In this document: piece after piece, positions 32,837-54,002 of the stretch | How the letters are laid out: every line of letters begins with the position of its first letter | Numbering within the stretch: the first letter of the stretch is position 1 | Origin: Mycobacteroides chelonae | Lineage (GTDB): Bacteria > Actinomycetota > Actinomycetes > Mycobacteriales > Mycobacteriaceae | Length of the DNA stretch: 64,000 nt | Reading direction: 5' to 3' | NCBI RefSeq assembly: GCF_016767715.1 | Contig: NZ_CP050145.1 | Span: 1,674,001-1,738,000, forward strand | Notes under the pieces: generated by a model | The model's input: only the letters and a program-made list of their open reading frames with translations | What the model was told of the DNA's origin: nothing | Databases searched by the model: none | Program-made: the position numbers and the translations under genes

Positions 32837-34162
32837 TTAGCCACCGAACAGCAGGTACAGCCCGGTGAAGGTGTAGCCCACCATCACCAGCATCATCGCG
32901 AGCTGGCCCGTCACCTGGTGTTTCTTGGGCAGGACACGCAGCGCCCGGTCATGGGCGGCGACCACACCCGCGATGTGCCCGGCCAGTACGAATCCCACCT
33001 TGAGAGTGGAAAGCACCGCGGGGTGCATCGACAAGACGTAGGAGACGTCGACATCGGAGAGCCATCTGCGCCCGAGAGGGTCGGCGAGCCGCAGCAGCGT
33101 CTGCTGACCCCGCTCCACGAGATAAGTCAGATAGTGAGCGAACACGTATCCGATCACGATCGGGATCAATGAATGTGCCAGCAGGCCCGGCAGAGCGCGG
33201 CGAGTGGACGCATCGACGCCGCCGGTCGCGCGCGCGGCGAGCCAGAAGGTGGTGGCAACGGTGGCCACGAAGACCGCCAGCCCGACGGTTCGGATCGTCA
33301 CGGCCGCAACTGTCGAGTCACCGGCGAGTTCGTCGACAAACGCGCGCCAGCCGGGCATGGCCGAGAAACTGTCGAACGCGGTCGAACCCAGCAGCACGGC
33401 GAGCACCGCCACGATGCCCGGCCGAATCGGCAGTGACGGCAGATGATCGAACGGATTGCCGACAGCGATGCGGCCATCGGCGTTGCGCCGCAACGGTGAC
33501 AACCGCGAGGCCACCATGCTGTAGACCTCGAACGGATCGGCCCGCGCACACCAGCGGGTACCGCAGGCCAGCGCGCCGGCGAGGGTTATCGCCACGTATA
33601 CCAGGAGCCAGATCTTCACCGCACCAAGCGATCCGGGGTCGGTACTGGCCAGCTCGAGCCAGACAAACATGTACAGACCCGCAGCCGCGGGCCAATATCC
33701 CCATCGCTGTGGGTAATCGGCGGGTGGCGGCCGGCGCGAGAACGGTAGTACTCGGTACACGGCGCGCACGGGTGACAGCACCCGCCAGGCGGGCCCGCAC
33801 AGCAGCGACAGCGCGACCACGCCGACCCACAGCAGAACGTAGAAGACACCGGGCAGCGGATTCGTGGCGTCCTGTGGGCCGAGTGTCGCGGCCACGCCGA
33901 TCCACGCGGTTGCCAGGAGCACCAGCGCGGTGCCGGCCCGGCGGGTGACCGGGCTATCGGCGGCGGCGGTGACCCAGTCGGGCAGCGGTCGCCCGGGCCG
34001 ACTCGCGTCGAACCGGGGCTTTTTCCAGGCCAGTGCGACCACGGCGAAGGTGAACGTCAACGCCCACGCCGCGCCAATCAGTGCGTAGGAGTAGGGGATC
34101 GGAAGATCGGACGAACCGCCCAGTCCGTGGGCGAGTACCGCCGTCGACCGATCGGCCGTCAC
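32837..34162 (-). CDS. Locus A: polytopic membrane protein, fenitrothion-hydrolase (FedA)-like
   Basis: A 441-aa membrane protein with about ten hydrophobic helices and in-membrane histidines (LAHSLIPIVIGYVFAHYLTYL near 335-355; VLAGHIAGVVAAH near 400). It starts VTADRSTAVLAHGLGGSSDL, a beginning I associate with proteins annotated as fenitrothion hydrolase; that is recognition from memory, and the enzymatic role in this organism is unknown. GTG 34162 overlaps the cupredoxin-like lipoprotein by 4 bases, so it is the last gene of a tightly coupled four-gene unit. The much longer upstream frame (to 34774) is read through other genes and rejected. Confidence 0.75.
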   Translation of the reverse strand: MTADRSTAVLAHGLGGSSDLPIPYSYALIGAAWALTFTFAVVALAWKKPRFDASRPGRPLPDWVTAAADSPVTRRAGTALVLLATAWIGVAATLGPQDATNPLPGVFYVLLWVGVVALSLLCGPAWRVLSPVRAVYRVLPFSRRPPPADYPQRWGYWPAAAGLYMFVWLELASTDPGSLGAVKIWLLVYVAITLAGALACGTRWCARADPFEVYSMVASRLSPLRRNADGRIAVGNPFDHLPSLPIRPGIVAVLAVLLGSTAFDSFSAMPGWRAFVDELAGDSTVAAVTIRTVGLAVFVATVATTFWLAARATGGVDASTRRALPGLLAHSLIPIVIGYVFAHYLTYLVERGQQTLLRLADPLGRRWLSDVDVSYVLSMHPAVLSTLKVGFVLAGHIAGVVAAHDRALRVLPKKHQVTGQLAMMLVMVGYTFTGLYLLFGG

Positions 34163-34530
34163 GGCTGGACGGAGATCGTCGCGATCGTCTTCTTGAGTTT
34201 GTGAAGTTCGACATCGACCTTTCCGGGCACACTGACGCTGAACTGGAACGTCTGGCCGCTCTTCGGCTCGATCTCGAAGCTGTGGTCGGGAGTCGAGTGA
34301 ACGTGCAACTCGTCGGCGGTATCGCTGTCTACGCGGATCACGATGGGTTCGGCGACGCGCGTCTGCAGCGTGGCATTGGTTGGCGTGACGACTCCGTTCT
34401 TGATGGTGACGCTGACGGTCAGCGGTGCCGGCGGCGCACTGGAGTCGGTGGCCGGAGCCTTCGTCGAAGTGGTGCACCCGGCACACGCCAGCACTGCGAT
34501 GGTGATCGCGGTCAGGGCTCTCATCGTCAT
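34159..34530 (-). CDS. Locus A: cupredoxin-like lipoprotein with HxH
   Basis: A 123-aa lipoprotein: signal ends VLACAGC (lipidated Cys16 or Cys19), then a Ser/Pro linker and an all-beta domain from about residue 37. ADELHVHSTPDHSFEI contains an HxH pair (His76, His78) and His83; another His (110) lies in the last strand region. The pattern fits a small cupredoxin-fold domain that could bind copper or another metal; ligands are not the classical blue-copper set. It sits between two membrane-protein genes and overlaps the downstream one. Confidence 0.7.
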   Translation of the reverse strand: MTMRALTAITIAVLACAGCTTSTKAPATDSSAPPAPLTVSVTIKNGVVTPTNATLQTRVAEPIVIRVDSDTADELHVHSTPDHSFEIEPKSGQTFQFSVSVPGKVDVELHKLKKTIATISVQP

Positions 34531-34542
34531 CCTTGATTCCTC

Positions 34543-34701
34543 CTAATCGGGGTGTTCTTCCTCGCCGAGCGGATCGTCCTCGTCGGCCTGGCGCCGGTCT
34601 CGCATCGCCACCCAGATGACGACACCCGCCACCACAACCGCGGGTGCGAACGCGGGCAACGCCAACAGCAGTGAGTGGTCGGCCAGGTATTCGACGGTCA
34701 T
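34543..34701 (-). CDS. Locus A: 52-aa single-TM protein
   Basis: MTVEYLADHSLLLALPAFAP begins the protein; one TM helix (about residues 10-33) is followed by a basic stop-transfer (MRDRRQ) and an acidic tail (DEDDPLGEEEHPD). The ATG overlaps the stop of the upstream 617-aa membrane protein (ATGA). Its size and tight coupling suggest a small accessory subunit of the locus A membrane complex. Confidence 0.75.
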   Translation of the reverse strand: MTVEYLADHSLLLALPAFAPAVVVAGVVIWVAMRDRRQADEDDPLGEEEHPD

Positions 34702-36551
34702 GGGCCGTGAGACACCGGCTCCTTGGGATCCGGAGTCGGCAATGCGTCACTGGCGCTGCGAGTTTCGGTGCCATTGATACGCCCGGCGCCCCAGCTCAAG
34801 GCGGCGATGAGCACCAGCGTGCAGAACAGCACCACCAGTGATGCCACGTTGAACAGCCACGAGGGATGGTTTTGGTTGCGTTCACGTTGCAGGATCGTCA
34901 GCTCCTGGGTGAACGGACGGGTGCTTGACGTCAACGCCGGTGTCTCCGGTGCGCCGATGCCGGGATCGGCGGGAAGGAAGATCGGCACCCCGGTCATGGT
35001 GGTGCCGTCCTGCACGCGCAGCAGCGTCTTCCACGACCCATACACCGGAATGGGCTGTGTCGAACGGTAGTGGCCCTCACTGATCTTCTGCAGCCTGTTG
35101 ATGGCCAGACCATGATCATTGGCCAGGCCGCCCTGCCAGGACAGAATTGTCACCCATTCGGGATCGTCACTGATGAGGTCGCGCGGGTTGATCACTACGT
35201 CCGCCGACACCATCCGCTTACCGCCGTCGTTGGACAGTTCGCTCAATGTGATTGTCGCGGTGGCATGTTCGGGCACCTCGGTGCGCAGGCCGTTGGCCAC
35301 CGCGGCACCCAGCGCCAGCACCGTCAGCACGACTGCCGTGATGCTCACCGATCGTTTCGGCAGCTTCTGGCCGGTGAGCACCATGCCCAGCAGCGCGCCG
35401 CAGACGCCCATGGCGATGGCGGCAGGCACCGACATCGCCAGCGCTTCCGGCCACATGCTCAGTGGCCACGGGTAACGATAGACAGCCCCGATCCAGAGCG
35501 ATTCCAGCCACAGGCCGGCGGTGCCCACCCCGAGGCCCGCAATGGCGCCGAACAGGATGGGGCGCTTGATGAGCGGGGTTAGTGCGATGAGTTCGACGAC
35601 CAGGGCCGGCCCGAGATACAGCGCGAACCAACTCGTCGGTCCGCCGAGGATGGGTCCGGCGAGTAGTGAGACCGCCGCACGCAGGACGATGGCGAGCAGG
35701 GCGCCGATGATGGCCGCGCCGCGTCCCATCACGGTCCGCGCGCATACCGCGGCGAAGGCGGCGGCCGCGGCGATCATCATGGGCTGCTGGACCAGCCGGA
35801 ACTGTTCGACACCGAAGTCGTACTCGATCTGGAACACCGACAGCCCGATGAACAAGCCACCGAAGGACAAGTAACGCAAGAACTTCACGAAATTGGTGTC
35901 GTCATCTGCATTGAAGCCGATGGCACGCCGGCCTTCGTATTCCAGGATCAGCACGGAGACCAGCGACAGTCCGGCACCACCGATCAGCATCAGGTGCGTG
36001 GGACCCCACAGCGTGACGTCCTGGCCGAAGATGCGGTGCCAGATGTCATCCAGCGGGAACCCGATCAACGCATACAGGCCGCACATCGCCATCAGCAGTC
36101 CGCCCACCGGCGCGTACCAGGTGCGGGTGATGCGCACCGCCGCCGAACCGGGCCTGTCATAGGGCAGAACTATCGCCAGCGTGCCCGCGATGAACAGCAG
36201 GAACAACCCGAACAGGATGAAGTAATGCGCGGGGTTGGCCAGCGGGCCCGCGTCGCGGCCCTTGCCGATGTGCAGGCTGACGTCCCAGATGAAACCGAAC
36301 AGCGCGGCGACGATGGTCGAGACGAACAGGCAGATCTGCAGGGCCACCCAGGGTGGTCGATTGAACTTGTTGCCGATCTTGTCTGCCAGGTTCTGGAGCC
36401 AGGTGATGCGTCGCTGGCGGTGCAGGTACCCGATCCACAGCAGGCCGCCCGAGACGATCGTGGCGGCCACCGACATGCCGATCACCTGGTCGAGCGCGGC
36501 GCCACCGCCTTCGTCGGCAGCAGCGATGATGTGCAGAGACTCCGTTGTCAT
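34698..36551 (-). CDS. Locus A: polytopic membrane protein with two D-x3-H...H motifs
   Basis: A 617-aa protein of unknown function with about twelve hydrophobic segments. An early TM pair carries WD90VSLH94 with His109, and the next pair carries D168DIWH172 with Asp178 and His186 (GPTH). The second set has exactly the spacing (4, 6, 8) of D135/H139/D145/H153 in the locus B protein, so the two are related. Residues about 440-560 form an extracytoplasmic beta domain (EGHYRSTQPIPVYGSWKTLL) like the separate FixH/YtkA-like protein of locus B, followed by a last TM near 576-596. ATG 36551 is preferred over a 33-residue extension. The motif spacing suggests PmoC-type copper sites. Confidence 0.75.
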   Translation of the reverse strand: MTTESLHIIAAADEGGGAALDQVIGMSVAATIVSGGLLWIGYLHRQRRITWLQNLADKIGNKFNRPPWVALQICLFVSTIVAALFGFIWDVSLHIGKGRDAGPLANPAHYFILFGLFLLFIAGTLAIVLPYDRPGSAAVRITRTWYAPVGGLLMAMCGLYALIGFPLDDIWHRIFGQDVTLWGPTHLMLIGGAGLSLVSVLILEYEGRRAIGFNADDDTNFVKFLRYLSFGGLFIGLSVFQIEYDFGVEQFRLVQQPMMIAAAAAFAAVCARTVMGRGAAIIGALLAIVLRAAVSLLAGPILGGPTSWFALYLGPALVVELIALTPLIKRPILFGAIAGLGVGTAGLWLESLWIGAVYRYPWPLSMWPEALAMSVPAAIAMGVCGALLGMVLTGQKLPKRSVSITAVVLTVLALGAAVANGLRTEVPEHATATITLSELSNDGGKRMVSADVVINPRDLISDDPEWVTILSWQGGLANDHGLAINRLQKISEGHYRSTQPIPVYGSWKTLLRVQDGTTMTGVPIFLPADPGIGAPETPALTSSTRPFTQELTILQRERNQNHPSWLFNVASLVVLFCTLVLIAALSWGAGRINGTETRSASDALPTPDPKEPVSHGP

Positions 36552-36682
36552 TGGCCGGCCATCCTGTCCGCTGAGTGGGGGAGCAACAGTGCTACTGGTC
36601 GGTAATGTTTCCAGAATTTCTCGGCTCAAACAGGAGTACGTGCTAATCACTCACTGTCCCCGCGGCATGGGACGATCGTCCC

Positions 36683-47149: not shown

Positions 47150-49120
47150 ATGGTGTCGTCTCTTGATCCCGAGCTGTCGCTAGAAGGACTGCTTTCCAGT
47201 CAGTCTCCTGTTCAGCGGCGCGGCCCGTTTCCGCCCATCGCCGACTACGCATTTCTCTCGGATTGGGAGAACACCTGCCTGATCGCCGCCAACGGATCGG
47301 TGGAGTGGATGTGCGTTCCGCGGCCGGATTCGCCGAGCATCTTCGGGGCGATCCTTGATCGTGGGGCGGGGCATTTCCGGATCGCGCCATACGGGCACAA
47401 CGTGCCGGCCTCGCGCCGCTACCTGCCGGGCAGCCTGATGGTGGAAACCACGTGGCAGACCAAGACCGGATGGCTGACCGTCCGCGACGCGTTGGTGCTG
47501 GGGCCCTGGCACGACGTCGATTCCCGGTCGAAAACCCATAAGCGCACCCCGACGGATTGGGATGCCGAGCACATCTTGCTACGCACCGTGCGCTGTGTGA
47601 GCGGGACGGTCGAAGTGCTCATGAACTGCGAGCCCGCGTTCGACTATCACCGTGAGGGTGCCTCCTGGGAGTACTCCGGCGACGGCTACGGCGAGGCGAC
47701 CTGCCGGGCCACCAAGAACCCCGACGCCAATCCGACGCTGAAGCTGACCACGAATCTTCGGCTGGGGCTGGAGGGCCGGGAAGCGCGTGCCCGCACCCGG
47801 CTCACCGAGGGCGACAACGTGTTCGTCGCGTTGAGTTGGTCCAAACATCCTGTGCCGCAGACATATGCGGAGGCCGCCGACAAAATGTGGAAGACCGCCG
47901 AGGCCTGGCGGCAATGGATCAACATCGGTGAATTTCCCGACCATCCGTGGCGCTCGTACCTGCAGAGCAGCGCGCTGGTCCTCAAGGGCCTGGCGTACTC
48001 GCCGACCGGCGCGCTGCTGGCAGCCTCGACCACATCGCTACCGGAAACCCCTGGGGGAGTGCGTAACTGGGACTATCGCTATTCGTGGGTGAGAGATTCC
48101 ACCTTCGCGCTGTGGGGTCTCTACACGCTGGGTCTGGACCGTGAGGCCGACGACTTCTTCTCATTCATCGCCGATGCTTCGGGTGCGAACAATGGCGAGA
48201 AACATCCGCTGCAGGTCATGTACGGCGTGGGTGGCGAACGCACCCTGACCGAGGGGGAGCTGCCCCACCTGTCCGGGTACGACGGGGCACGGCCGGTGCG
48301 CATTGGTAACGGTGCCTTTGATCAGATCCAGCACGACATCTGGGGCACCATGCTCGATTCGGTGTACGTGCACGCCAGGTCGCGGGAGCAGATTCCTGCG
48401 ACGCTGTGGCCGATCCTGAAGAACCAGGCCGAAGAGGCGGCACGGCATTGGCGTGAGCCCGACCGTGGCATCTGGGAAGTACGCGGGGAGCCACAGCATT
48501 TCACCTCGTCCAAGATCATGTGTTGGGTCGCTATGGACCGCGGCGCGAAACTTGCCGAAATGCATGGTGAGAAGAGTTATGCCCAGCAGTGGCGTGCTGT
48601 CGCCGACGAGATCAAGGACGACATCCTGGAGAATGGCGTCGATGAACGCGGGGTGTTGGTACAGCGTTACGGCTCAACGGCTTTGGATGCCTCGCTGCTG
48701 CTCGCGGTGCTGAACCGTTTCCTGCCGTCCGACGATCCGCGGATTCGGGCGACGGTGCTGGCGATCGCCGATGAGCTGACCCATGACGGCCTGGTGCTGC
48801 GTTACCGGGTGGAGGAGACCGACGACGGACTCTCGGGTGAGGAAGGAACCTTCACCATCTGTTCGTTCTGGCTGGTGTCGGCGTTGGTGGAGATCGGTGA
48901 GGTACGCCGGGCTCGCCACCTGTGCGAGCGACTGCTGTCCTTCGCCAGCCCGCTGCAGCTCTACGCCGAGGAGATCGACCCGCGTACCGGTCGGCATCTG
49001 GGCAACTTCCCGCAGGCCTTCACCCACCTGGCGTTGATCAACGCGGTCGTGCACGTCATCCGGGCCGAGGAGGAAGCGGACATGAGCGGCACCTTCCAGC
49101 CTGCGAACGCGCCCACGTGA
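47150..49120 (+). CDS. Glycoside hydrolase family 15, trehalase-type
   Basis: A 656-aa enzyme corresponding to Rv2402, whose mycobacterial family includes the trehalase that splits trehalose to two glucoses. The N-terminal beta-sandwich (IADYAFLSDWENTCLIAANG) leads to the (alpha/alpha)6 barrel with RNWDYRYSWVRDSTFALWGL, WEVRGEPQHFTSSK and the catalytic-acid region EEGTFTICSFWL. No signal peptide, so it is cytosolic. The following lipoprotein gene overlaps by 4 bases (GTGA). Confidence 0.88.
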   Translation: MVSSLDPELSLEGLLSSQSPVQRRGPFPPIADYAFLSDWENTCLIAANGSVEWMCVPRPDSPSIFGAILDRGAGHFRIAPYGHNVPASRRYLPGSLMVETTWQTKTGWLTVRDALVLGPWHDVDSRSKTHKRTPTDWDAEHILLRTVRCVSGTVEVLMNCEPAFDYHREGASWEYSGDGYGEATCRATKNPDANPTLKLTTNLRLGLEGREARARTRLTEGDNVFVALSWSKHPVPQTYAEAADKMWKTAEAWRQWINIGEFPDHPWRSYLQSSALVLKGLAYSPTGALLAASTTSLPETPGGVRNWDYRYSWVRDSTFALWGLYTLGLDREADDFFSFIADASGANNGEKHPLQVMYGVGGERTLTEGELPHLSGYDGARPVRIGNGAFDQIQHDIWGTMLDSVYVHARSREQIPATLWPILKNQAEEAARHWREPDRGIWEVRGEPQHFTSSKIMCWVAMDRGAKLAEMHGEKSYAQQWRAVADEIKDDILENGVDERGVLVQRYGSTALDASLLLAVLNRFLPSDDPRIRATVLAIADELTHDGLVLRYRVEETDDGLSGEEGTFTICSFWLVSALVEIGEVRRARHLCERLLSFASPLQLYAEEIDPRTGRHLGNFPQAFTHLALINAVVHVIRAEEEADMSGTFQPANAPT

Positions 49121-49881
49121 GCATCCGGGGCGCCGCCGCGGTCGCTGTGGTGATGTGCGTGGTCGCGTCCGGATGCGGACGCGCCGCCGATACGGATGCG
49201 CAGGCTCCCACCACAACCGAGCCTTCCTCGGGGACAACGTCATCGGCGACTCCGGCGAGCCCCGCCCCGGCCTTTGGATACACGCCGGTGTTGGAGCCGG
49301 TCAAGGGTGCCGAGGGGATGGTGACCTATGACGTGCCACTGCCGCAGCTCTCCGGCGGAGTACCCGCCGTCCGCGATCGATTCAACGACGGGATGCGCAG
49401 CGCGCTGCGCGACGTGATCGACACGTTGTCCGGTCCCGCCAAGAGCCAGCAGGTATCGATCAGCGAGGGCGATATCGGTCCTGAGCGGGAGAGCACTCGT
49501 GTCGCGATGATCGGACCGCACGTGGTGGCGGGCATCCAGGTGTATCTCTGGTACGCGGGCGGTGCACATCCGAATCAGTCGGTCTCGACGTTCGTCGTCA
49601 ACAGCGATACCGCGCAACCGATTACCTATGACGATCTGTTCCCCAACCAATATGCCGCCCTGGAACGGCTGCGGCAGGTGCTACCCGATCTGGACCCGAC
49701 CGCGCGGGTGCGCCAGGAGACCGTCAACGGGCGGCTCGAACAATGGATACCCGTGCCGGCCGGGTTGCGGTTCTACGTTCCGGTGTCACATGCTGCCGGT
49801 GATTTCGTTCCGATTACCGTGCCGTGGGAAAAGATTCGTGATCAGGTGGCGCCTGAAATCATTCCGGTGCTGAGCCAGTAA
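49117..49881 (+). CDS. DUF3298/RsiV-like lipoprotein, paralogue 1
   Basis: A 254-aa lipoprotein (VVASGC lipobox, Cys20), then a Thr/Ser/Pro linker and a domain with YDVPLPQLSGG, DRFNDGMRSALRD and STFVVNSDTAQPITYDDLF. The domain resembles the DUF3298/RsiV type found in lysozyme-sensing or secreted mycobacterial proteins. The C terminus FVPITVPWEKIRDQVAP is shared with the next gene. Function unknown. GTG 49117 overlaps the GH15 stop. Confidence 0.78.
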   Translation: MSIRGAAAVAVVMCVVASGCGRAADTDAQAPTTTEPSSGTTSSATPASPAPAFGYTPVLEPVKGAEGMVTYDVPLPQLSGGVPAVRDRFNDGMRSALRDVIDTLSGPAKSQQVSISEGDIGPERESTRVAMIGPHVVAGIQVYLWYAGGAHPNQSVSTFVVNSDTAQPITYDDLFPNQYAALERLRQVLPDLDPTARVRQETVNGRLEQWIPVPAGLRFYVPVSHAAGDFVPITVPWEKIRDQVAPEIIPVLSQ

Positions 49882-49896: not shown

Positions 49897-50682
49897 GTGA
49901 GATGTGGTCTTGCGTTGATGCTGGTGGTGACCTGCGGCGTGGCTGCCGGTTGCCTCAAACCACCCGACCAACCCACGCAGACGCCCGAGGCTCCGCCGTC
50001 CACCACGACCCCATCCACACCGGTTGTGTCCGTTACCCCGGCGCAAGCACCGCCGACCGCGAAGCCTGCCTTCGGTTTTGGTCCCACGCTGCAGCAGGAG
50101 AGCGGAAAGCAAGGCAAGGTCGACTACAACGTCAAACTGCCTCAGGTCACCGGCGATAAGGCCGGTGCCCGAGACCGATTCAACGACGGCATGCGCGTGG
50201 CGCTGAAAGACGTCGTGCGCAGCCTGGACGATCCGAAGGCGGCGAAGCCCGCGACGGTGGGTGACGGGCAGCTGCAGGCGGGGGAATCGAGTCGGGTCGT
50301 GTTCATCGGTCCGCATGTGTTGTCGGGAGTCGCCGTGTTCCTTTCGAACAGCGGCGGCCCGTACCCCAGCAACAGGGTCGCGACCATCACGATCAACACC
50401 GATACGGCGCAGCCGATCATGTTCGGCGATGTGTTCGCGGACCAGGGGGCGGCACGGGAGCAGTTACGGAAGTTGGTTCAGGAGCTTGGGCCGCCCGATC
50501 GGATCAAGGCGGCCGGGGATATGAAGTCTGAGCAGTTTTTGCATTGGCTTCCCGTACCTACCGGTCTGACTTTCTATGTCTCCGTTCCCCACGTCGCCGG
50601 AGATTATGTGCCGGTTACCGTGCCGTGGGCGAAGATTCGCGATCGGGTGGCTCCCGGGATGCAGACGATTCTTAGCCAGTAG
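49897..50682 (+). CDS. DUF3298/RsiV-like lipoprotein, paralogue 2
   Basis: A 261-aa tandem paralogue of the preceding gene: lipobox GVAAGC (Cys19), Pro/Thr-rich linker, then DRFNDGMRVALKD, TITINTDTAQPIMFGDVF and YVPVTVPWAKIRDRVAPG, each matching its neighbour. GTG 49897 follows aaggggggcgg. Its end overlaps the end of the convergent locus B flavoprotein by 11 bases. Confidence 0.78.
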   Translation: MRCGLALMLVVTCGVAAGCLKPPDQPTQTPEAPPSTTTPSTPVVSVTPAQAPPTAKPAFGFGPTLQQESGKQGKVDYNVKLPQVTGDKAGARDRFNDGMRVALKDVVRSLDDPKAAKPATVGDGQLQAGESSRVVFIGPHVLSGVAVFLSNSGGPYPSNRVATITINTDTAQPIMFGDVFADQGAAREQLRKLVQELGPPDRIKAAGDMKSEQFLHWLPVPTGLTFYVSVPHVAGDYVPVTVPWAKIRDRVAPGMQTILSQ

Positions 50683-51925
50683 GCGGACGCCGCGCGAAAT
50701 CCGGTGCGTGTTCGGGCAGCGGCCCGATCGCCACCCCGTAGGCGGGAACTGCCTGTAGCCATGGATATTTGGTGGCAACGGACAACACCGATGCCACTCT
50801 GCTGCTGGGAGTGACGGTGGTGTTCGACCCCACTGCCGAGAACACTCGCCGGTGAACGGCGCGCTGCACCCGCTGGATCAGTGCGGTGGGGGCCCACCGG
50901 CGCAGCTGTACCTTGCGAAGATCGGCGGTGGTCAGAGATCCGGTGCGCAGCGGCTCGGCAAGGATGCGGGCAGTCGCCACCGCATCGGCGATCGCGAGGT
51001 TGATACCGACCCCGCCGACGGGAGACATGGCGTGGGCGGCATCGCCGATGAACAGTAGGCCTTCGCGATACCACTTGCGAAGTCTGTTGAGCTGTACATC
51101 AAGCAGTTTCACGTCATCCCAGGTGGTGATGGCATCGGTGCGGTCAGCCAGCCACGGCACCATTTCGGCGATTCGGTCGCGCAACACCTGCACGTCGCCG
51201 CTGCGCATCTGCGAGTCGGTGCCCTTTCCGATCAGATACCCGCACTGGAAATAGTCGCCACGATCGAGCATCACCATGAATCGGTTGGTACCCACCCGGG
51301 CGCGTGGTCCCTGAGGGTCGTCGGGATGCTTGGGAAGGCGGAACCACCAGACGTCGATGGGCACACCGAACTGCCGCGGCCGCATGCCCGCGGCGGCGCG
51401 CAGTACCGACCCGCGACCGTCGCAGGCCACTGTCAGGTCCGCCTTGAGCTGCCCGGTTTCTCCTGTAGCGGTGCGATATTCGACGCCGGTGATGCGGTCG
51501 CCGGCGCGCAGGAGCCCGGTCACCTCGGTGCTGCGGAGCAAGGTGAAGGTGGGCTCGGTGGCCGCGGCACTGGCCAGCATCTCCAGGAAGTCCCATTGGG
51601 GTGCCATCGCGATGTGTTTGTGCGGTCCCGGAAGTCGGTTGAGATCGCCCAGGCGATATGTCTGCTCCCCGAGGTCGACGGTGACTTGCTCGACCAAGTT
51701 GTGGGGCATGGCCGCGAATTTCGGGCCGAGCCCCAGTTCATCCAGCAGATTTAGTGTGCTGGCGTGCACCGTGTCTCCACGGAAGTCGCGCAGGAAATCG
51801 GGATGCTTCTCGAGCACCGTGACGTCGACTCCGCCGCGTGCGAGCAGCAGCGCCAGCATCATTCCGGCCGGTCCGCCGCCGGCGATAGCGCAGGTGGTGC
51901 TTTGCGAGGGTTCAGGTTTGGTCAC
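50672..51925 (-). CDS. Locus B: FAD-dependent monooxygenase
   Basis: A 417-aa flavoprotein of the p-hydroxybenzoate hydroxylase group: AIAGGGPAGMMLALLLARGG (residues 13-32), VACDGRGSVLRAAAG near 168, and FIGDAAHAMSPVGGVGINLA near 292. GTG 51925 lies 14 bases inside the preceding gene, so the flavoprotein is translationally linked to the membrane/beta-domain genes of locus B. The substrate is unknown; cotranscription suggests that it works on a compound related to that cluster, but it could be a passenger. Confidence 0.85.
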   Translation of the reverse strand: MTKPEPSQSTTCAIAGGGPAGMMLALLLARGGVDVTVLEKHPDFLRDFRGDTVHASTLNLLDELGLGPKFAAMPHNLVEQVTVDLGEQTYRLGDLNRLPGPHKHIAMAPQWDFLEMLASAAATEPTFTLLRSTEVTGLLRAGDRITGVEYRTATGETGQLKADLTVACDGRGSVLRAAAGMRPRQFGVPIDVWWFRLPKHPDDPQGPRARVGTNRFMVMLDRGDYFQCGYLIGKGTDSQMRSGDVQVLRDRIAEMVPWLADRTDAITTWDDVKLLDVQLNRLRKWYREGLLFIGDAAHAMSPVGGVGINLAIADAVATARILAEPLRTGSLTTADLRKVQLRRWAPTALIQRVQRAVHRRVFSAVGSNTTVTPSSRVASVLSVATKYPWLQAVPAYGVAIGPLPEHAPDFARRPPTG

Positions 51926-52433
51926 GAGTTCTCCTCCACGCCACGATCAAAACTGCTGCCAACGCGAACACCGGTATCAACGAGACGATCCAACTCAGGG
52001 CCAGCGGTGGTCCCGGTTGGGGCAGCACCTCCAGATCAAGGATGCCCTGCCCGGGCCCCTGTGGTCCGGTGATATCGAAGATGAACTGGTGACGGCCTTC
52101 TTCCTGCAGTGCCCGGACATCCAGCCCCCAGACCTCCCGCTTGCGCGGATGGCGTGCCAGCCGTTCGGCATGCCCTTGCTTCCCGTCGGGCGACACAATG
52201 GTGAGCGTGCCCGATTTATCGGCGATCCCGCCGGCGGGGATGAACGTGAAGTCCAGTGATTGCATGGCGCGCAGCGGCCAGGTCGAGAACCCGACGGTCA
52301 GGGGATAGGGGCCGACGGTGACCTGTTCGGTGTGCACCACATTTACGGGTGCGTAGGCGTTGGCAGGGACGCTAAGGCCCAGGGACAGGCCGATGACTGT
52401 GATGAGTGACAACAGGATTCGAATGTGTCTCAC
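51912..52433 (-). CDS. Locus B: exported beta-domain protein with C-terminal TM
   Basis: A 173-aa protein: signal peptide to about residue 26 (VPANA|YAP), a beta-rich extracytoplasmic domain (NVVHTEQVTVGPYPLTVGF; FTFIPAGGIADKSGTLTIVS), and a TM helix near 144-165 with a basic tail (WRRTR). His34 lies close to the mature N terminus. Topology resembles YcnI/CopC-like copper-handling proteins but I recognise no confirmed family. GTG 52433 overlaps the upstream membrane-protein stop (GTGA). Confidence 0.72.
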   Translation of the reverse strand: MRHIRILLSLITVIGLSLGLSVPANAYAPVNVVHTEQVTVGPYPLTVGFSTWPLRAMQSLDFTFIPAGGIADKSGTLTIVSPDGKQGHAERLARHPRKREVWGLDVRALQEEGRHQFIFDITGPQGPGQGILDLEVLPQPGPPLALSWIVSLIPVFALAAVLIVAWRRTRDQT

Positions 52434-53587
52434 GCGGCTACCCCCGCAGTCTCGGCATCGCTTCCGGGCACCCGCAACATCAGTGCGATGCGCTGCGCCA
52501 GAAATCCGGCGAGTGCGCCCAACACCAGTCCCGCCACGCCGACGGTGACGTAGTTGCTCGCGGTTTCGGTGCCCTGCCGATACAGCATTGCGCCCTGCAG
52601 CAGATAGCCCATGCCCGCCACCGAACCCAGGATCGCGCCGATGACGGTGGTCGGCCACCGCTGCCATTTCCGGTCCCCGGCCAGGTGCAGCATCCCTGCG
52701 GCGAGTACTGCGAAGATCGCGAGGAACATGGGCATCATTCCCGGGATTGTGGGTGGCCCGCCCCAGAGATCGTCGCGCAACGGCAACCCGACTGCCGCGG
52801 CGTATTCGTGTGCGGCCCAGGGAGAAAACCACCAGAAGATGGCTTGAATGGCACCCATGATCACCGCGACCCCGAGCGGCGCCAGCGTCGAGCGTACGAC
52901 GCCCGCGATGAGCAGCAGCACGAGCGGAACGATGAACGCCGAGCCCAGCGAAATCGGGTTGAAATCGAACTTGAAGAGGAACAGCGCCGTGAACGGAATG
53001 GCAGTCATCGCCGCCACCAGTGAGGCTTGGGCCATCAAACCCACCACACCCCAACGGAATCGGCGTGCCGCCGCAAAGGTCACGATACTGCCGAGGTCGG
53101 TGACGGTTCCGGACACGAACAATGCGAAATGTGGGGGAGAGGCCAGGACGGCGTCGAACCCGTAGACCGTATGCCACCACAGATCCAACAGCCCGTACAT
53201 GAGAAACGAGGCCGCGCCACAGCCGGAGAGCAGGAAGCCCAGGGGAGCGGTGAATCTGCCCCCGAACACCCGGATCGGTACGCCGCCCACCCAGCGGGGT
53301 ACTTCCTCACCCGCGCGCTGTGCGGCCGTGACCATCAAAACCATGACGAGGCTGGTGATTCCGCCGATCGCGCTACCCGAGTACAGGAACAGATGTGGCA
53401 GCGTGAAGAACGTATCGGGACCCACATCGTCGTGCCATTCGACATCCCAGGTGGTCCCCACCGCGCCTACCACGCTGCCCAGCAGCACGCCGTAGGCACC
53501 CAATGGCGCGTACTTCTCGATGACGGCGTGGGTGATCCGCGGCGTCTGTTCGGCGTCGGTGCCTGCGGTGCTCGTCTCGGCGTTCAT
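52430..53587 (-). CDS. Locus B: polytopic membrane protein with PmoC-like D-x3-H-x12-H
   Basis: A 385-aa membrane protein with about nine hydrophobic helices. The first motif is TTWD48VEWH52 with His65 (LPH); the second is D135LWWH139 with Asp145 and His153 (SPPH). Spacings D-4-H-13-H and D-4-H-14-H equal those recalled for the Cu_C and Cu_D sites of PmoC in particulate methane monooxygenase (second site Asn in PmoC, Asp here). The protein is related to the 617-aa locus A protein. ATG 53587 has ggagg 5 bases upstream; GTG 53599 would add four residues. The upstream gene stops one base before this ATG. Confidence 0.75.
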   Translation of the reverse strand: MNAETSTAGTDAEQTPRITHAVIEKYAPLGAYGVLLGSVVGAVGTTWDVEWHDDVGPDTFFTLPHLFLYSGSAIGGITSLVMVLMVTAAQRAGEEVPRWVGGVPIRVFGGRFTAPLGFLLSGCGAASFLMYGLLDLWWHTVYGFDAVLASPPHFALFVSGTVTDLGSIVTFAAARRFRWGVVGLMAQASLVAAMTAIPFTALFLFKFDFNPISLGSAFIVPLVLLLIAGVVRSTLAPLGVAVIMGAIQAIFWWFSPWAAHEYAAAVGLPLRDDLWGGPPTIPGMMPMFLAIFAVLAAGMLHLAGDRKWQRWPTTVIGAILGSVAGMGYLLQGAMLYRQGTETASNYVTVGVAGLVLGALAGFLAQRIALMLRVPGSDAETAGVAA

Positions 53588-53588
53588 G

Positions 53589-54002
53589 TCAACCTCCACT
53601 CACCCATAGTGGCATCGTCGTGCGTTCATCGGGATCGCCGGAGGGTGGCGTGACGGTCACGATGATGTCCCAGGGTCCCGCCATCGACAGCATCACCTGG
53701 TCGAACTTCGTGCGGCCCGATATCACCTCGCGCAGCGGCGGCATGGCGTGGCCCATCAGTGGTATCGCCAATTCAACTGATACCGATTGAGATTCGGGGT
53801 AACCGTCATCCTCTCTTTTGGTGATGGCGACTTCCAGAGCGGTCATCCCGACGCGGGGGTTATCCACCGTCACGGCGACGACATAGTGCTCGGTACCCGA
53901 GTGCAGCGTGACGGTCTCGGGGGCGCTGGGCCAGGCAATCCACGCCAGCCCCAGCACGGCGGCAACGATCAGCGCGAGCCCTGCCCACACCTGACGGGTC
54001 AT
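53589..54002 (-). CDS. Locus B: FixH/YtkA-like membrane-anchored protein
   Basis: A 137-aa protein with one N-terminal TM (about residues 5-25) and an extracytoplasmic beta domain: SVSVELAIPLMGHAMPPL (residues 73-90) contains a Met-x-His-x-Met group (Met83/His85/Met87), and MLSMAGPWDIIVTVTPP is the usual FixH/YtkA ending. Such domains often accompany copper proteins. ATG 54002 overlaps the upstream stop by 4 bases. The locus A membrane protein carries a similar domain fused at its C terminus. Confidence 0.75.
   Translation of the reverse strand: MTRQVWAGLALIVAAVLGLAWIAWPSAPETVTLHSGTEHYVVAVTVDNPRVGMTALEVAITKREDDGYPESQSVSVELAIPLMGHAMPPLREVISGRTKFDQVMLSMAGPWDIIVTVTPPSGDPDERTTMPLWVSGG

Follow-up and report, generated by a model that had tools for sequence, protein, structure and literature searches.

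Two predicted metal sites in a membrane protein of Mycobacteroides chelonae

The gene discussed here, P0001, lies on the minus strand (52430..53587) of a stretch of 64,000 nucleotides from Mycobacteroides chelonae (contig NZ_CP050145.1, positions 1,674,001 to 1,738,000), which is referred to as the window and to which all positions refer. It encodes a membrane protein of 385 residues that is, on the comparisons given below, very likely a remote homologue of XmoC, the C subunit of the copper membrane monooxygenases (CuMMOs). Like that subunit it appears to be a twin-hairpin protein: helices 1-4 bear both predicted metal sites, and a second helical half follows. The gene begins with ATG at 53587, preceded by a GGAGG, and ends with TGA at 52432-52430. 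A preliminary description, made from the letters alone, had given these coordinates correctly and omitted the strand. A scan for promoters and terminators gave no signal above chance.

Site 1 (53393..53446, minus strand) reads D48-x3-H52-x5-D58-x6-H65 and aligns with CuC of PmoC from particulate methane monooxygenase (pMMO); site 2 (53129..53185, minus strand) reads D135-x3-H139-x5-D145-x7-H153 and aligns with CuD, with Asp replacing Asn. According to PMC12576850, D156/H160/H173 are the CuC ligands and N227/H231/H245 those of CuD. The preliminary description had quoted these residues, with steps of 4 and 13 and of 4 and 14, and they are found as quoted in chain C of PDB entry 1yew, to which the PmoC fragment used here is an exact match over 154-266. 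The six residues that it had named in P0001 (D48, H52, H65, D135, H139, H153) were checked individually; all are present, and both PmoC spacings are reproduced in the same order. None of 200,000 shuffles of P0001 contained the two spacings in order. They are found in order in 7 of 1,599 open reading frames (ORFs) of at least 300 residues from outside the family (fetched loci, non-coding frames included), so that spacing alone is modest evidence only. As spacing could be luck, it is on conservation that the motif is judged to be real.

An AlphaFold2 model of P0001 (predicted local distance difference test, pLDDT, 91.3; predicted template modelling score, pTM, 0.90) contains about ten long helices, and the nine counted previously are thus an approximation. 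It agrees with the proposed position of the ligands at helix boundaries: D48 and H52 close helix 20-54 and H65 opens helix 63-91, and likewise D135 and H139 close helix 116-142 and H153 opens helix 151-173. Judged from the positive-inside pattern of the sequence, both sites would face outward. That P0001 has two metal sites is considered highly probable. An ordinary known family was rejected for this protein, since Pfam and NCBIfam models explain none of it; a PIG-F match (E 0.0028, residues 304-326) is taken as chance, being present in 1 of 76 family members.

Conservation and distribution of the family

Conservation was assessed on loci found by overall similarity, without selection for the motif. 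They gave 57 ORFs, of which 50 are distinct, counting the two of the window. Site 1 is covered by 49 of these sequences, the remaining one being interrupted by a contig end, and all 49 retain D48, H52, D58 and H65; D135, W138, H139, G143, D145, P151 and H153 are retained in all 50. Over aligned columns, 46 of these sequences share 15-26% identity with P0001; the other four stand at 36, 37, 88 and 100%. As a further test, 16 stretches with weaker matches to a joint 12-row profile were fetched. Fourteen ORFs span both sites, and every one of them retains the twin D-x3-H...H; one ORF covering site 1 alone keeps that site, and two hold the C-terminal half only. The invariance of the six ligands among relatives is thus upheld wherever they are covered.

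Among the weaker matches the distance to the last His is not constant (L158, for example, has 13 and 16). At H+6 of site 1, L151, L152, L154 and L156 have Glu as the acid, and in L158-L161 the acid is displaced; the ligands are therefore firmer than this second-shell acid. L158, L159, L160 and L161 combine twin sites of altered spacing with the wording FTPWH/FSPWH and SPTH/SPSH, near the FTPSH of PmoC, and possibly constitute a further subfamily. In a 76-row family alignment (A6) only D48, H52, D58, H65, D135, W138, H139, G143, D145 and H153 are without variation, which is illustrative since the rows were chosen by motif. The regular expression for the motif failed in 3 of 135 family ORFs: one is truncated, and two keep the ligands without the Pro before the last His.

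The genome of the window holds two family members (E<=10), the second being P0002. Relatives of P0001 occur in 7 of 60 genomes of the genus, this one counted, and relatives of P0002 in 24 of 81 genomes of the taxonomic family; the joint profile has matches in 38 of 296 genomes of the phylum. The nearest sequences to P0001 are from three 'Mycobacterium sp. D16' genomes (89-90% identity) and four named Mycobacteroides (79-87%). A scan of a species-genome collection gave 78 named loci, in Mycobacteroides, Mycolicibacterium, Nocardia, Nonomuraea, Streptosporangium, Actinokineospora, Kutzneria, Pseudonocardia and others. Outside those genera, members were found in metagenome-assembled genomes: one of Chloroflexi (L118), two of Truepera type (L117, L121) and two labelled Thaumarchaeota, whose short members both carry the two sites (L122:1262-2473; L123:208-1353). 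The Thaumarchaeota label needs care, since the contigs are only 8.8 and 5.0 kb long. A literature search, with most subscription papers and all preprints outside its coverage, found no description of such a family, which is apparently both widespread and undescribed.

Relation to the C subunit of copper membrane monooxygenases

The reference for this comparison was an alignment (A2) of eight genuine CuMMO C subunits taken from plasmids. In all eight, site C is made up of D, H, R at H+5, D at H+6, and H, and site D of N, H, E at H+6, and H. The acids D58 and D145 of P0001 occupy the same H+6 places. The H+5 residue of site 1 is Arg in 45 of the 76 A6 rows, Pro (as in P0001) in 29 and Val in 2, and the R165-D166 pair of PmoC site C thereby has an R-D counterpart in 45. 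The site C feature of AmoC/PmoC, D-x3-H-x12-H, is found in P0001 in register. For the site D feature, N-x3-H-x13-H, the spacing and both His are found and the Asn is replaced, Asp standing there in 50 of 50 sequences. This second feature may not define the whole AmoC/PmoC family, because the D site was not seen in the archaeal sequences studied in PMC9038741.

At the profile level, hhalign of A6 against A2 places both sites in register (p 2.1e-5), and a profile-profile comparison of the family alignment A1 with A2 does the same (p 3.1e-5). In the controls, which used trimmed alignments, the observed score of the family against CuMMO-C was 46.9, compared with a maximum of 20.4 for 100 column shuffles, 16.0 for the reversed alignment and 15.4 against CuMMO-A. 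With the six ligand columns masked the score was 39.2, and with eight masked 30.0, the register being kept and all 100 shuffles still exceeded. The single subfamilies weigh against the homology: the rows of the B type, that of the P0001 locus, reach p 0.01 on their own, a sister type of 486 residues 0.013 and 0.022 (the latter with 1 of 100 shuffles as good), and the type of locus A, the P0002 locus, 0.13 with site C only.

A hidden Markov model (HMM) of CuMMO-C, run on a small database of 8,589 ORFs, found 19 family members and no other ORF at E<=0.1, and 24 members and one other at E<=1. Most of the 135 family ORFs are thus not reached. The best match is L123 (8.5e-7), and L122/L123 may therefore be nearest to the CuMMO branch point. 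The family HMM ranks the eight XmoC first among the 266 ORFs of their loci (E 7.9e-8 to 0.015, best other ORF 0.07; likewise a small database). A search of 24,736 Pfam models gave AmoC for more A6 members than any other family (8 of 76, best 1.1e-3); TIGR03078 is their commonest NCBIfam match (10 of 76, best 1.6e-3), and AmoC tops a PDB profile search of the family (E 0.0049, site C region). P0001 itself has no AmoC match in Pfam or NCBIfam, and the cut-offs of PF04896 and TIGR03078 (26.7 and 280.6 bits) lie above the family matches shown, at 15.4-17.1 bits. The PmoC fragment had no match in phages, nor had AmoC in the window's own genome, where controls were weak or silent; the XmoB model, searched without that for XmoA, matched neither this genome nor any of 14 control genomes.

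The preliminary description had proposed an unrecognised relative of AmoC/PmoC. Remote homology stands on the profile evidence; membership does not, given the cut-offs, the lack of the site D Asn and the different partners. On the structural side, Foldseek gave no significant fold match for the P0001 model, and AmoC/PmoC are missing from its top 50.

When the P0001 model was compared with PDB 9cl2 chain Ca, PmoA appeared besides PmoC among the top six structural rows, a possible hint that PmoA and PmoC are themselves related. A PmoA-like second half of P0001 was rejected, the one high VIA row having a root-mean-square deviation of 7.3 and no profile link being found.

The two sites of P0001 are an internal duplication. 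Its halves 22-100 and 108-190 align in A6 with a probability of 97.6% (p 4.3e-12), in a test favoured by the motif selection of the rows. No such repeat emerged when the eight CuMMO-C were tested in the same way (p 0.069 over 7 columns). CuC and CuD would, should the homology hold, descend from one duplicated hairpin, of which no mention turned up in the literature searches.

The locus B cassette

P0001 is embedded in a run of minus-strand genes that holds no XmoA or XmoB. The first, P0004 (53999..55549, predicted ATG start, about 516 residues), has a signal peptide, a beta domain, two membrane helices and more beta domains, with several invariant His. It is followed by g137 (53589..54002, 137 residues), a YtkA/FixH-like protein that has a hydrophobic helix in its N-terminal part and contains an MGH motif; the ATG of g137 overlaps the stop of the preceding gene. 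Beyond P0001 lies P0003 (51912..52433, about 173 residues), with a putative GTG start that overlaps the P0001 stop; it consists of a signal peptide, a beta-type domain and a C-terminal membrane helix, and H30, E32, D57 and H91 (numbered from 52421) are invariant. The junctions read ATGA, TGA-c-ATG and GTGA, and then a 14-nt overlap joins P0003 to a gene for a flavin adenine dinucleotide-dependent monooxygenase-type protein (50672..51925, minus strand).

The B-type loci number 55 and represent 53 distinct family proteins, since two loci were fetched twice. In 54 of them the four genes P0004, g137, P0001 and P0003 stand together on one strand; the 55th, L086, begins at a contig end. Their order by 3-prime end is preserved in 53 of the 54. 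In the exception, L114, the g137 match lies inside a longer frame overrunning a short family ORF, with the matched piece where it is expected. The flavin monooxygenase-type gene is adjacent in 9 of the 55 loci, all of Mycobacteroides type (E<=1e-20), and was rejected as a fixed part of the system for this reason.

Homologues of g137 match YtkA-like (33 of 38, E<=0.01, best 4.3e-16) and FixH-like (24 of 38) models; the own copy stays under the cut-off against YtkA (PF13115, E 0.034). The g137 family profile also matches PDB 9ll2, 'Copper resistance protein' (E 1.4e-8). YtkA is found in 21 of 39 P0004 homologues and not at E 0.01 in the own copy, and P0003 gave no usable profile match. We take the domain order of P0004 to resemble that of PmoB. 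As a PmoB homologue, P0004 was rejected: hhalign gives p 0.38, and the two fold searches return generic immunoglobulin-like folds only, with PmoB, AmoC and PmoC missing from the listed matches of both.

Nearby on the plus strand, the ORFs 48922-49881 and 49897-50682 have PVPxGLxFYVxVxHxAGDxVPxTVPWxKIRDxVAP in common in their C-terminal parts, which suggests a tandem duplication.

Locus A and the sister subfamily

Locus A (32837-36650, minus strand) is a separate, second cassette of the P0001 family. P0002 (34698..36650, minus strand, 650 residues), which we take as the 'locus A' protein, has the sites D123/H127/H142, with x14 spacing, and D201/H205/H219, and a C-terminal domain of extracytoplasmic type. 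Downstream of it lie cupA (34159..34530, minus strand), lipoprotein-like and cupredoxin-like, and memA (32837..34162, minus strand), the third gene of the cassette, a polytopic membrane protein with no Pfam or NCBIfam match. An E-x-H-x-H and a second His are invariant in cupA, and Cupredoxin_1 is matched by 3 of 14 members of its family (E<=0.01, best 1.3e-4). The cupA and memA families comprise 22 and 27 ORFs, each of which lies close to a gene of the P0001 family and on its strand, within short flanks. A link of P0002 to Rv1678 (NCBIfam, E 0.0032) was dropped after a follow-up search that came back empty, its controls being silent too.

The sister subfamily, the 486-residue type, accounts for 19 of the 78 named loci. 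After a membrane helix, a C-terminal domain opens with AHDPG-x-G, invariant in 15 of 15 rows; this junction is carried by L005-L007, L118-L121, L124, L125, L127-L134, L136-L138, L142 and L143. It is a possible signal-peptidase site, at which putative cleavage would leave His at the new N terminus, such as occurs in PmoB or CopC. Within the fetched flanks, 6 of 19 sister loci encode a P1B-type ATPase versus none of 51 B-type loci, and any copper pattern in 9 of 19 versus 1 of 51; flanks extended up to 10 kb, and the copper patterns were crude regular expressions devised after some loci had been viewed. Neighbours confirmed by Pfam are a heavy-metal ATPase with HMA domain (L130), a multicopper oxidase (L142), SCO1/SenC (L120), a Penicillinase_R-type repressor (L143) and an HMA protein (L136).

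Possible functions

The reading we put forward is that P0001 is a remote XmoC homologue built on duplicated D-H-H hairpins and serving copper handling together with YtkA/FixH-like partners. Its probability is put at roughly 0.45. Each hairpin would bind metal at a D-H-H site backed by a second-shell acid; g137 and P0004, both YtkA/FixH-like, and P0003 would bind extracytoplasmic copper and load it onto the twin sites of P0001, which would hold or redox-cycle copper at the membrane surface. The task of the cassette would be copper handling, by transfer or by cuprous oxidation, and not growth on methane or ammonia, for neither of which the host mycobacterium is, to our knowledge, known. Copper is likely the metal of the P0001 sites, and would flow between P0001 and the partners. 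On sequence grounds, P0001 probably shares an ancestor with the XmoC copper module and may work like it.

Copper handling is slightly favoured over substrate oxidation, in which P0001 would be a true copper-dependent oxidase or monooxygenase, its twin sites activating O2 and oxidising a hydrophobic membrane substrate. The extra helices of P0001 would then replace XmoA, and P0004 and P0003 would replace XmoB and XmoD. This seems rather unlikely, as P0004 has no sequence link to PmoB, no substrate pathway is common across genera in a noisy neighbour analysis, a flavin gene adjoins so few of the cassettes, and AmoC and XmoB searches of the genome gave no match, with controls weak or silent.

A metal-dependent membrane enzyme or sensor using zinc, iron or manganese, related to XmoC by descent and not by metal, is improbable. 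Several metals suit Asp/His ligands, and Asp stands at both sites where CuD has Asn. However, the partners or fused domains of three subfamilies resemble copper proteins (YtkA/FixH, weak FixH, cupredoxin), and the sister subfamily is often near copper exporters. Just as improbable is a role in inserting copper into a haem-copper oxidase, after the manner of YtkA/CtaK or Caa3_CtaG. A core oxidase is expected in all genomes of the genus, whereas P0001 homologues are patchy, and the Pfam matches include no CtaG family. On the other hand, the gene for SCO1/SenC lies upstream of one sister-subfamily gene, and the title of a reference cited in PMC9145763 names YtkA (CtaK) as a factor in cytochrome c oxidase biosynthesis. 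Least probable is convergence, with two D-x3-H-x12/13-H hairpins that arose independently of XmoC and an alignment reflecting the motif only: the weak scores of single subfamilies, the 7 other ORFs with both spacings and the Foldseek result speak for it, but the alignment outlasts the masking of six or eight columns, non-ligand residues are held in common (the acid at H+6, Arg at H+5 in the majority of rows, and a Pro close to the final His), and site order and helix-end placement are alike.

Beyond the copper-handling reading, it could be imagined, as a doubtful extension, that an old non-methanotroph branch of the CuMMO-C superfamily keeps the duplicated copper hairpin ancestral to CuC and CuD. 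In Actinomycetota, Chloroflexota, Trueperaceae and some archaea, this branch would team up with YtkA-like proteins as functional copper redox enzymes. The catalytic copper site of pMMO and the origin of the CuMMOs are long-standing questions, and a family with both D/N-H-H sites, in which these are seen to be duplicated hairpins, and without adjoining XmoA or XmoB offers a simpler system for studying what these sites bind and do. Many actinobacteria also gain an unannotated probable copper protein. Resemblance to AmoC at the motif level does not imply methane or ammonia oxidation.

Comparison with known systems

Four known systems invite comparison. The mycobacterial Insig homologue, which we take PDB 4xu4-4xu6 to be, is matched by the C-terminal half of the family profile, weakly (E 0.018) and with high composition bias; with one homologue in 61 genomes, an Insig-like second half was rejected. 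Caa3_CtaG is, like P0001, polytopic, with conserved His and one Asp that are possible metal ligands according to PMC9145763; the P0001 family, however, has no profile match to it. YtkA-like and FixH-like proteins (PF13115, PF05751) and PDB 9ll2 are met in the profile matches of the g137 and P0004 families, although the window's own copies fall under the cut-offs, and here these proteins form a fixed cassette with an XmoC-like protein. From AmoC/PmoC/HmoC (PF04896, TIGR03078) the P0001 family differs in the Asp for Asn at site 2, in extra C-terminal helices, in a cassette without XmoA/XmoB, in scores under every curated cut-off, and in an internal duplication that is evident here and not in CuMMO-C. 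It is with these subunits, nevertheless, that it has in common two sites of the same order and spacings, an H+6 acid in both, an R-D pair at site 1 in the majority of relatives, and remote homology at the profile level.
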